From NCBI RefSeq assembly GCF_009650215.1, contig NZ_CP045851.1, positions 2,941,001 through 3,005,000 of the forward strand: a stretch of DNA of 64,000 nt. The letters run 5' to 3'. The notes beneath the pieces were generated by a model. The model was not told where the DNA came from and searched no databases. It saw only the letters and a list, made by a program, of their open reading frames with translations. Below are positions 33,184-36,609 of this stretch, one piece after another. The position numbers and the translations under genes are program-made. Source of the DNA: Actinomarinicola tropica. GTDB taxonomy: Bacteria > Actinomycetota > Acidimicrobiia > Acidimicrobiales > SKKL01. How positions within the stretch are numbered: position 1 is the first letter of the stretch; every line of letters starts with the position of its first letter.

Positions 33184-33285
33184 CCCCACGGGTCGGGCGC
33201 GGTTGGCGTCACATGGGCCGGATGTCGCGCCCAACCCCACGGGTCGGGCGCGGTTGGCGTCACATGCGCCGGATGTCGCGCCCAA
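33184..33285. repeat. tandem 51-bp hairpin-forming repeat
   Basis: Two copies of a 51-base unit stand back to back at 33184-33234 and 33235-33285, with one difference seen in the centre (GGG against GCG after CACAT). Each unit can fold: GGTTGG pairs with CCAACC around a partly paired CGTCACAT / ATGTCGCG middle. They lie between convergent genes and may be terminators or a dispersed palindromic repeat. Confidence 0.8.
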
Positions 33286-33304
33286 CCCCGGAGGGGCGCA
33301 CCGG

Positions 33305-33901: not shown

Positions 33902-33930
33902 GAGGGTCCCCCTTCGTCGTGGTTCGACGG

Positions 33931-33973
33931 CCACCGTAACAATTGACAGGATTCCTGACAATACTTACGGTGG
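33931..33973. promoter_or_regulatory. nested palindromic operator, TetR/DinB divergent promoter
   Basis: An inner near-perfect palindrome, ATTGACAGGA-T-TCCTGACAAT (33942-33962, one mismatch pair), is centred at 33952. An outer perfect 9-bp repeat, CCACCGTAA (33931-33939) with TTACGGTGG (33965-33973), has exactly the same centre. It also contains TTGACA. The position just before the TetR ATG (33978) and the divergent DinB-like gene suits an autoregulatory TetR operator. Confidence 0.75.
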
Positions 33974-33977
33974 GCGC

Positions 33978-34616
33978 ATGACGGTGACCTCGGAGGCCCT
34001 GACGGCGGCGTCGACCGGCGACGACGGGCGGCGGGCGCGCCGCTCGCGCAACCGGGAGACGGTCATCGACGCGCTGCTGACCCTCCACGACGAGGGCGAC
34101 CTCGCGCCGAGCGCCGAGGCCATCGCCGCCCGTGCCGGCGTGTCCGCTCGCTCGGTGTGGCGGTACTTCGACGACGTCGAGGACATGGCACGCGCGGCGA
34201 TCGCCCGCCAGCAGGAACGGCTCGCGCCGGTGGTGCAGCGTCCGATCGACGTCGGCGGGTCGCGCCACGAGCGGGTGCGCCGGGCGGTCGCCCACCGCGT
34301 CGACCTCGTGGCGGCGATGGGCAACGTCGGCAAGGTCGCACGGCTCCGCGCCCCGTTCAACGACGCGGTGGCGGCCGAGCTCCGCCGGGTGCGCGCCGAG
34401 CTGCGCCACCTGCTCGGCGCCGCCCTGCGGCCCGACCTGGCGCCGCTCCCCCGCGAGCGGGCCGAGATGACGCTCGCCGCGATCGACGTGGCGCTCTCCT
34501 ACGAGGCGATCGAGCTGCTCCGCGACGACCACGGCCTCGACGCCGACGTGCTCACCGCTCTGCTCGTCGACGTCGTCCACGCCCACCTCGCCGCGGCCGA
34601 GGCGGGGTCGCGATGA
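33978..34616 (+). CDS. TetR-family transcriptional regulator
   Basis: This 212-residue regulator has an N-terminal helix-turn-helix at about residues 25-70 (NRETVIDALLTLHDEGDLAP, AIAARAGVSARSVWRYFDDV) and a helical ligand-binding domain. The ATG at 33978 lies 4 bases after the palindrome, so the protein likely represses itself, the genes downstream and the divergent DinB-like gene. The stop overlaps the SRPBCC gene (ATGA). Confidence 0.88.
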   Translation: MTVTSEALTAASTGDDGRRARRSRNRETVIDALLTLHDEGDLAPSAEAIAARAGVSARSVWRYFDDVEDMARAAIARQQERLAPVVQRPIDVGGSRHERVRRAVAHRVDLVAAMGNVGKVARLRAPFNDAVAAELRRVRAELRHLLGAALRPDLAPLPRERAEMTLAAIDVALSYEAIELLRDDHGLDADVLTALLVDVVHAHLAAAEAGSR

Positions 34617-35041
34617 GGGCGAGCATCCGCCGCGAGGGGCGCATCGCCCGATCGGCCGACGAGGTCTGGGCGGTCGTCGGACGTCCGGAGCTGCTCCACC
34701 TCTGGTTCCCGGGGATCACCGCGTGCCGGGTCGACGGCGACAGCCGCACGATCACCACCGGCACCGGCGTCGAGATGCCCGAGCAGATCCTCACCAACGA
34801 CCCGATCCAACGACGCTTCCAGTACCGGATCACCTCGCCGCTCGTGCGCGAGCACCTCGCGACCATCGACGTGATCGACCTCGGCGACGGCACGTGCCTC
34901 GTCGTCTACTCCACCGACGCCGACCCGGCGACGATGGCCCTCGTCATCTCCGGCGGCACCGGCGGGGCCATCGAGCAGCTGCGCCGCCAGCTCGAGTCCG
35001 GCGCCGGCCCCGCCCTCGACGCCCTCCAGGGAGGCACCTGA
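34613..35041 (+). CDS. SRPBCC (polyketide cyclase-like) family protein
   Basis: This 142-residue protein has the START/SRPBCC layout: SADEVWAVVGRPELLHLWFP at the start, alternating strands (CRVDGDSRTITTGTGVEMPE, RFQYRITSPLVREHLATIDV, TCLVVYSTDAD) and a long C-terminal helix that closes a hydrophobic cavity. The ligand is unknown. It is translationally coupled both ways, by ATGA with the TetR gene and TGATG with the sulfatase, so it probably processes or binds a compound of the same pathway. Confidence 0.82.
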   Translation: MRASIRREGRIARSADEVWAVVGRPELLHLWFPGITACRVDGDSRTITTGTGVEMPEQILTNDPIQRRFQYRITSPLVREHLATIDVIDLGDGTCLVVYSTDADPATMALVISGGTGGAIEQLRRQLESGAGPALDALQGGT

Positions 35042-36609
35042 TGGGACGCAAGATCCTCTTCGTCACCACCGACCAGCAGCGCTACGACACCCTCGGGTGC
35101 AACGGCGGCCAGGTCGCCCGCACGCCGGTGATCGACCGCCTCGCGGCCGAGGGGATCCGCTACGAGCGCGCCGTCCCGCAGTCGGTCGTGTGCATGCCCT
35201 CGCGATCGACGATGCTCACCGGCCAGCACCCCCGCACCCACGGCGTGTGGATGAACGGCGTCCCGCTCCCCGTCGACGCACCGTCGGTGGCCGCCGAGCT
35301 GCATCGCGCCGGCTACCGGACGGCGCTCGTCGGCAAGCCGCACTTCGAGCCGTTCCTCGACCCCTTCGCCCGCTTCGTCGAGAACCGCCTCTCGAGGGAG
35401 GGTGTGTTCACCGTCGACTCGCCGTGGCACGACGGCACGATCGGTCCGCACCGGGGCTTCGAGCACATGGAGCTCGCCACGCACGGCGCCGCCGGTCCGC
35501 TCCACTACGCCCGGTGGCTGAACGCCGAGCACCCCGAGGCGGTGGGCGGCTTCTACGCCGTGCTCGACCAGGACCTCGAGGTGAACGCCGACGGCGGGGG
35601 GTCCACCGGCGCCCCGCAGGTGAAGGACAACCCGATCCCGCGGGAGTGGTACCACACCGACTGGGTGGCCGACCGCACGATCGGCTGGCTCGACTCGCTC
35701 GACGCCGACGACGACTGGTTCTGCTGGATGAGCTTCCCCGACCCCCACCACCCGTGGGACCCGCCGGCGTCGGAGCTCGGTCGCGTCGACTGGCGGGAGG
35801 TGCCGCTCCCCGAGGGCTACCCGGAGGACCGCGCCGAGAGGGAGGCGCTGCTCGACGCCAAGCCCCGCCACTGGCGCCGGTGGTACGACGGCTCGCTGGT
35901 GTCGAACTACGAGGCACCGTCGCGCTGGGTGCCCGCCACGCTGACCGCGGACCAGGTGCGCGAGGTGAACGCCCGGAACGCGATCGAGGTCGAGCTGATC
36001 GACGAGGCCCTTGGCCGAGTGCTCGCCGCGATCGAGGCCCGTGGCTGGACCGACGACGTCGACGTCGTGTTCACCACGGACCACGGCGAGCTCCAGGGCG
36101 ACTTCGGGCTCCTCTTCAAGGGGCCGTACCACGTCGATGGGCTGATGCGGCTACCGCTCGTCTGGCGGCCGGCACCCTCCGCCAGCATCGCCCCTGCGGT
36201 CGTCAGCCAGCCCGTGGGCCTGGTCGACCTCGCACCGACGTTCTGCGAGGTCGCCGGCCTCGCCGCCCCGGACTGGATGGAGGGATCGGTCCTGCCGACC
36301 GACGACGATGCCGCCGTCGCCGCTCGCGACGGCGCGCAGCTCACCGAGTGGGACAGCGAGCTGTTCGGCGTGGGCGTGCACCTGCGCACGATCACTCGCG
36401 ACGGCTGGGTCTGCACGGTGTACCGGCCGGGCACGGTCCACGACGGCACGGAGGGCGAGCTCTACGACCTCTCCGACGATCCGCTCCAGCGGGTGAACCG
36501 CTGGGACGACCCCGCGTGCGCCGCCGTGCGCTCCGACCTCGTCGCGGACCTCGAGGACCGGCTGCGACCGAGGCCCTCGCCCCGGCGTCCGCTCGACGCC
36601 CCGGTCTGA
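35041..36609 (+). CDS. sulfatase (Cys-type, formylglycine)
   Basis: This 522-residue hydrolase cleaves sulfate or phosphonate-type esters. The activating motif CMPSR lies at residues 51-55, where Cys would be oxidised to formylglycine, followed by TMLTGQHP. Metal ligands come from TTDQQ near 10-13 and FTTDHGELQGD. There is no signal peptide, so it acts in the cytoplasm, as in choline-sulfatase-like and phosphonate monoester hydrolase relatives. No formylglycine-generating enzyme gene lies in the window. Confidence 0.88.
   Translation: MGRKILFVTTDQQRYDTLGCNGGQVARTPVIDRLAAEGIRYERAVPQSVVCMPSRSTMLTGQHPRTHGVWMNGVPLPVDAPSVAAELHRAGYRTALVGKPHFEPFLDPFARFVENRLSREGVFTVDSPWHDGTIGPHRGFEHMELATHGAAGPLHYARWLNAEHPEAVGGFYAVLDQDLEVNADGGGSTGAPQVKDNPIPREWYHTDWVADRTIGWLDSLDADDDWFCWMSFPDPHHPWDPPASELGRVDWREVPLPEGYPEDRAEREALLDAKPRHWRRWYDGSLVSNYEAPSRWVPATLTADQVREVNARNAIEVELIDEALGRVLAAIEARGWTDDVDVVFTTDHGELQGDFGLLFKGPYHVDGLMRLPLVWRPAPSASIAPAVVSQPVGLVDLAPTFCEVAGLAAPDWMEGSVLPTDDDAAVAARDGAQLTEWDSELFGVGVHLRTITRDGWVCTVYRPGTVHDGTEGELYDLSDDPLQRVNRWDDPACAAVRSDLVADLEDRLRPRPSPRRPLDAPV

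Follow-up and report, generated by a model that had tools for sequence, protein, structure and literature searches.

What is a 43-base near-palindrome doing between two divergent genes of an actinobacterium, and what does its symmetry serve? The sequence in question lies in a 64-kb window of the Actinomarinicola tropica genome, the window being the whole stretch of DNA analyzed here. Counting base pairs around each centre in the window, we found 18 of 21 pairs around position 33952, the only centre with at least 18. The initial annotation had described a 43-base near-palindrome made of an inner 21-mer and outer 9-base arms that share this centre, situated between a TetR gene and a DinB-like gene, and on all these points it holds: the inner 21-mer (33942-33962) forms 9 of 10 pairs, and so is imperfect, the outer arms (33931-33939 and 33965-33973) form 9 of 9, the combined count is the best in the window, and the gene layout places the site between those two genes. 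The palindrome is thus confirmed, with the reservation that a best centre of 18 was also reached in 2 of 30 first-order Markov sequences of equal length, which makes such a pair count, taken by itself, only modestly unlikely. The 49-mer around the site, when folded as single-stranded DNA, reaches -18.2 kcal/mol (z = -8.0), a value matched by none of 200 shuffles. The site is also singular in its own genome. The pattern TTGWCA-N7-TGWCAA, with one mismatch allowed, occurs once in 3.7 Mb and has no control matches, and TTGWCAGGANTCCTGWCAA, with up to three mismatches, matches the window site only. We consider it likely that the palindrome is best read as two opposed, overlapping promoters around one repressor site, and that the core of this site became inverted in the lineage of the window.

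The genes that flank the site were assigned from family models that score close to or below their thresholds. The DinB-like protein reaches 23.3 bits against Pfam DinB_2, just under the curated cut-off of 24.8, and falls far under the cut-off of the NCBIfam mycothiol transferase model. The regulator reaches 23.2 bits (E 5.7e-5) against TetR_N, just under the gathering cut-off of 24.0, and weakly matches the KstR, BetI and FasR models as well as TetR-like chains in the PDB, including LfrR and KstR; neither PDB nor family searches gave a specific TetR subfamily or ligand. An S.RS.FRYF stretch in the recognition helix is common to most aligned TetR relatives and to two paralogues; the protein encoded in the window has W in place of F. 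Beyond the sulfatase, the next gene encodes an SDR protein. Downstream of the DinB-like gene lies a 51-bp tandem repeat (2.1 copies, 33184-33289), a 27-nt piece of which has 15 matches in the genome with up to three mismatches, many exactly 51 bp apart, and no control matches; on this pattern, the repeat is a dispersed short tandem-repeat family.

Features of the TetR/DinB intergenic region and flanking genes, in window coordinates; promoter and operator elements are predictions.
Feature	Position	Strand	Basis
DinB-like (DinB_2 / mycothiol-transferase-like) protein, 198 aa	33305..33901	-	Pfam and NCBIfam, both under cut-off
Shine-Dalgarno-like AAGGGGG, short leader of DinB-like gene	33908..33914	-	sequence
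43-bp near-palindrome, predicted operator and two overlapping divergent promoters	33931..33973	.	sequence, pair count
Predicted -10 box TACGGT, DinB-like gene promoter	33933..33938	-	left outer arm, 17-bp spacer
TGN before DinB-side -10 box (extended -10 type)	33939..33941	-	sequence; TGNTANNNT class (accessible part of PMC3898074)
Core whose reading is inverted relative to all 22 relatives	33940..33964	.	breakpoints placed in arms 33931-33939 and 33965-33973
Predicted operator core TTGACA-GGATTCC-TGACAA	33943..33961	+	half-sites conserved in relatives, 7-nt centre not
Predicted -35 box TTGACA, TetR operon promoter	33943..33948	+	sequence
Predicted -35 box TTGTCA, DinB-like gene promoter	33956..33961	-	sequence
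Predicted -10 box TACGGT (TANNNT type), TetR operon promoter	33966..33971	+	right outer arm, 17-bp spacer
TetR-like regulator (212 aa), mRNA predicted to be leaderless	33978..34616	+	Pfam TetR_N, under cut-off
SRPBCC (Polyketide_cyc2) protein	34613..35041	+	start overlaps TetR stop
Sulfatase	35041..36609	+	start overlaps SRPBCC stop

The positions of TTGACA, TTGTCA and the two TACGGT boxes divide the palindrome into promoter parts, with both predicted -35 boxes in the inner arms and both -10 boxes in the outer arms. The half-sites TTGNCA-N7-TGNCA thus coincide with the -35 boxes of two predicted, overlapping and divergent promoters, and each -35 box sits within the spacer of the opposite promoter. 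Each TTGNCA half-site would double as a -35 box, paired with a TANNNT -10 box across the centre in the opposite outer arm. A scan with the sigma-70 consensus gave no match, because these -10 boxes are of the TANNNT type and not TATAAT-like. According to the accessible part of PMC3160421, TANNNT about 12 bp before a start codon marks leaderless genes in bacteria, and Mycobacterium tuberculosis, as described in the accessible part of PMC3898074, has TANNNT -10 boxes and many leaderless transcripts. The TetR gene follows this rule: the first T of its TACGGT box lies 12 nt before the ATG at 33978, with 6 nt between box and ATG, and its mRNA is predicted to be leaderless. The window's DinB-like gene does not follow it, having a leader.

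Repressors of the TetR type attach as dimers to palindromic sites, where they block polymerase. At this site, one TetR dimer would occupy the inner operator and cover both -35 boxes, and when bound would silence both promoters. TetR would be autoregulated, SRPBCC and sulfatase would be repressed along with it, the DinB-like gene would be repressed too, and a ligand would relieve the repression. We infer both TetR binding and the transcription starts at the site from this layout. Divergent promoters that overlap and contain an operator are an already known kind of arrangement. The bioA/bioBFCD operator of E. coli is an imperfect palindrome over two divergent promoters, both of which are shut by one repressor, BirA; it resembles the window in having a palindromic operator that overlaps divergent promoters, and differs in repressor, sequence and genes. 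AcrR, in turn, is a TetR-family repressor. In the accessible part of their paper, Warman et al. (PMC12825309) describe bidirectional promoters in E. coli and other prokaryotes, name PacrR/acrA among them, and place the starts flanking or within a shared -10, commonly 10, 18 or 23 bp apart; where promoters share DNA, polymerase on one excludes polymerase from the other. The window site is like those promoters, so far as that part describes them, in its pseudo-symmetric DNA and, as its layout suggests, in two mutually exclusive directions, with RNA polymerase taking one direction at a time. It differs in that its -10 boxes (33933-33938 and 33966-33971) are separate and the predicted starts lie about 52 bp apart, which sets it outside the shared -10 type. 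Among open-access papers, we found no matching case for this operator in Acidimicrobiia.

DinB relatives of the window gene were found in 62 of the 298 genomes of the order (E <= 1e-20) and in 63 of the 395 genomes of the class (E <= 1e-60), where loci were taken at the best 30 of the 63 matched places. Genome contigs supplied 63 loci; most of their titles name Acidimicrobiia or other Actinomycetota, and a few are oddly labeled. After removal of duplicates there were 123 distinct loci, 120 of which had at least 150 nt upstream, and the other 3 were dropped from the counts. The motif search across the order required TTGACA, and the counts over loci allowed TTGWCA. The alignment comprised 23 sites including that of the window; L069 was left out, as its motif-like match lies 1.9 kb away, and L083 and L115, whose degenerate sites fall outside the pattern, were left unscored.

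The asymmetric letters of the site point towards the DinB operon in all 22 relatives. Near relatives have TAACAATTGACA-N7-TGACAATACTTA, or something close to it, pointing to the DinB operon, and in the window this reading points to TetR. Scored by log-odds for the DinB direction with the window outside the training set, the window site has -13.1 bits and the other 22 are all positive, ranging from +3.0 to +24.3 (three at just +3.0 to +3.5), and training on the eight nearest sites only gave -16.4 against +8.5 to +19.2 bits, although these scores overstate the evidence, because related sites (L077, L079 and L080 are near-identical) are not independent. Random column-wise draws were as low as the window in 10 of 1,000,000 cases, a guide and not a probability, since the draws assume independent columns and the sites share ancestry. 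At columns -9, -8, -3, +3, +8 and +9, which lie in the half-sites or next to them, the window has the mirror of the commonest letter among relatives in all six. Compared with its congener L085 (genome G001) over 28 core columns, the window has 9 mismatches as found and 3 when flipped.

The reversal most simply occurred on the window's own branch, since in a tree of DinB proteins the window and L085 are sisters (support 97/92), both belong to a ten-row clade (97/97), and the window is thus nested among unflipped relatives. Its core, which reads like the reverse complement of those of its relatives and is enclosed by inverted arms, is by this tree the derived state. Beyond the arms everything keeps its normal side: the DinB leader is still next to DinB and the leaderless start still next to TetR, and the breakpoints are accordingly placed within the arms. 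Apparently, then, the core of this one genome was inverted in place. The TTGACA promoter that faces DinB in relatives would now face TetR, and the TTGTCA promoter, with TGN before its -10 box, would now face DinB; in the congener L085, unlike in the window, TGN is on the TetR-facing side. The repressor site would have survived the inversion because the operator is symmetric.

From this pattern, template switching at the quasi-palindrome is the most likely cause, and it would also have made the arms near-perfect. In the accessible part of PMC8604942, Abraham and Hazkani-Covo report that template switching between imperfect inverted repeats homogenizes the arms and inverts the spacer, both together in one case. 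Their yeast genes resemble the window in that the core between inverted repeats is reversed and the arms have grown more similar on the derived branch. As far as that part of the paper goes, their cases are short spacers in coding genes, inverted only with arms longer than 9 bp, whereas in the window the arms measure 9 bp and the 25-bp core doubles as the predicted promoter and operator, making the match inexact. Searches of an open-access library gave no matching case of template-switch inversion of a bacterial operator.

Separate point mutations, selected for an altered balance between the TetR and DinB sides, could have produced the same two-way promoter and single-dimer operator with no inversion. 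The middle letter of the half-sites is A or T on the left, and on the right A in 14, T in 5 and C in 3 of the 22 relatives, so part of the asymmetry is changeable by point mutation; L064, which has TTGTCA on its DinB side, indicates that single changes do occur. However, independent changes would have to account for the mirroring of all six columns and for a score that so few random draws attained, and the arms and centre turned symmetric as well. We regard this explanation as unlikely, if the most serious of the alternatives to an inverted core.

Which parts of the palindrome are kept among relatives bears on how many repressors it seats. The letters TTG, CA, TG and CA of the half-sites are invariant in all 22 sites other than the window. 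The 7-8-nt centre has no common symmetry: most relatives form 0-1 of 3-4 possible pairs, a few form 2, and L145 forms all 3. In L041 and L074 the centre is 8 nt long and both spacers are 18 bp, meaning either that an additional base is acceptable in the operator or that the protein has adjusted to it. Symmetry of the outer arms ranges from 1 to 7 of 9 pairs in the relatives, against 9 of 9 in the window.

On the DinB-operon side, 22 of the 23 sites have a TANNNT -10 box at 17-18 bp, and 16 of these also have a start codon 11-14 nt further on. On the far side the box occurs at 14 of the 23 sites, 12 of which have a start codon. A gene starts 16-18 nt beyond the site in 12 cases (TetR in L002, L085, L040, L103, L066, L075, L074, L041, L065, L064 and L094, SRPBCC in L021; for L040, L041 and L021 the start codon was taken from the promoter scan), and 11 of these have the far-side box in register, all except L094, where TetR starts 17 nt beyond the site. 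Where TetR starts 33-78 nt beyond the site, the box is in register in none of five (L077, whose TetR start is uncertain at about 73 nt, L079, L080, L084 and L154). The far-side box thus appears to go with leaderless gene starts, limited to those 16-18 nt beyond the site. A far-side TANNNT is also present in L101, L145 and L147, despite a TetR more than 1 kb away, and in L037, L078 and L142 both the box and a nearby TetR are absent. At L101, L145 and L147, the site adjoins DinB, but about 1.2-1.4 kb of intervening sequence lies before the start of the TetR relative (longer stretches L157 for L145 and L156 for L147).

Half-sites that stay while -10 boxes come and go fit one dimer on the inner site. 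The initial annotation had suggested that two TetR dimers might sit on the inner and outer arms, as the two concentric arm pairs of the window, with outer pairing complete, would allow. This proposal was not borne out: outer arms coincide with the -10 boxes, their symmetry is not conserved in the 22 relatives, and the far-side box is missing at the five sites with a more distant TetR start. A second dimer therefore seems improbable to us.

Could the half-sites belong to a regulator other than the TetR of the locus? Within 1 kb upstream, TTGWCA-N7/8-TGWCA is present in 16 of the 26 loci that have a divergent TetR, SRPBCC or sulfatase relative, against 3 of the 94 without one, and one of those three, L147, has TetR-SRPBCC-sulfatase further out in its longer stretch. 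The strict motif is absent from 10 of the 26. Across the order, TTGACA-N7/8-TGACAATAC has 10 matches in 9 of the 298 genomes, 9 of them upstream of DinB genes or operons (8 directly, and one in G008 ahead of what appears to be a two-gene operon with DinB last); the tenth falls inside an unrelated reading frame. L037 and L142 carry the motif, and a TetR relative is absent from their fetched flanks, as would be expected if another protein bound it. Against this stand the association of the motif with the TetR/SRPBCC/sulfatase neighborhood, the conserved recognition-helix stretch, and the position of the motif next to TetR in L077, L079, L080, L084 and L154, where an extra gene parts TetR from DinB. 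Binding by a different regulator is, in our judgment, improbable. The initial annotation had the site controlling the TetR-SRPBCC-sulfatase operon and the divergent DinB-like gene at once, which position and linkage support, and the comparison of the intergenic region in relatives that it proposed found the half-sites kept where the divergent pair is kept.

Two side observations came with this comparison. One metagenome bin, G216, carries on two contigs two differing DinB/TetR/SRPBCC/sulfatase loci (L066 and L067), either because the bin is mixed or through duplication. In the window's own genome, L005 (around 1470-1510, C1 about 786450) carries a TetR paralogue (39% identity) that diverges from another sulfatase (36%) and has a TTGACA-N8-TGACAT site at its start; a regulator and site of this type may occur again there.

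The inverted orientation might instead be an error of sequencing or assembly, given that it is found in one genome only and at a strong hairpin; yet the flanks outside the arms lie on their usual sides and the predicted TetR-side promoter is intact, with its start codon at 12 nt, and we give an artefact very little credence. Action as a cruciform or hairpin, also raised by the initial annotation, is the least credible reading of all, for despite its folding energy in the window the structure is missing from the three relatives that were folded (z -1.29 to +0.50) and the centre is unconserved, so a strong hairpin confined to the window is not what selection keeps.

Extending the inverted-core reading, the quasi-palindrome could be a hinge that flips recurrently, so that promoter types swap sides repeatedly, perhaps within a population, with repression kept; we think this distinctly improbable. 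Invertons are promoters between inverted repeats that a recombinase flips, both orientations coexisting in a population. The window is similar in having a promoter in reversed orientation between inverted repeats, but its segment is far shorter.

A striking concentric palindrome can thus be read as -35 and -10 boxes, with a repressor footprint that is likely only in the middle. The unusual part is the apparent in-place inversion with the operator preserved, seen in one genome. It suggests an uncomplicated route for regulatory evolution, in which a symmetric operator allows its two promoters to be exchanged by one mutation while the repressor site is preserved.
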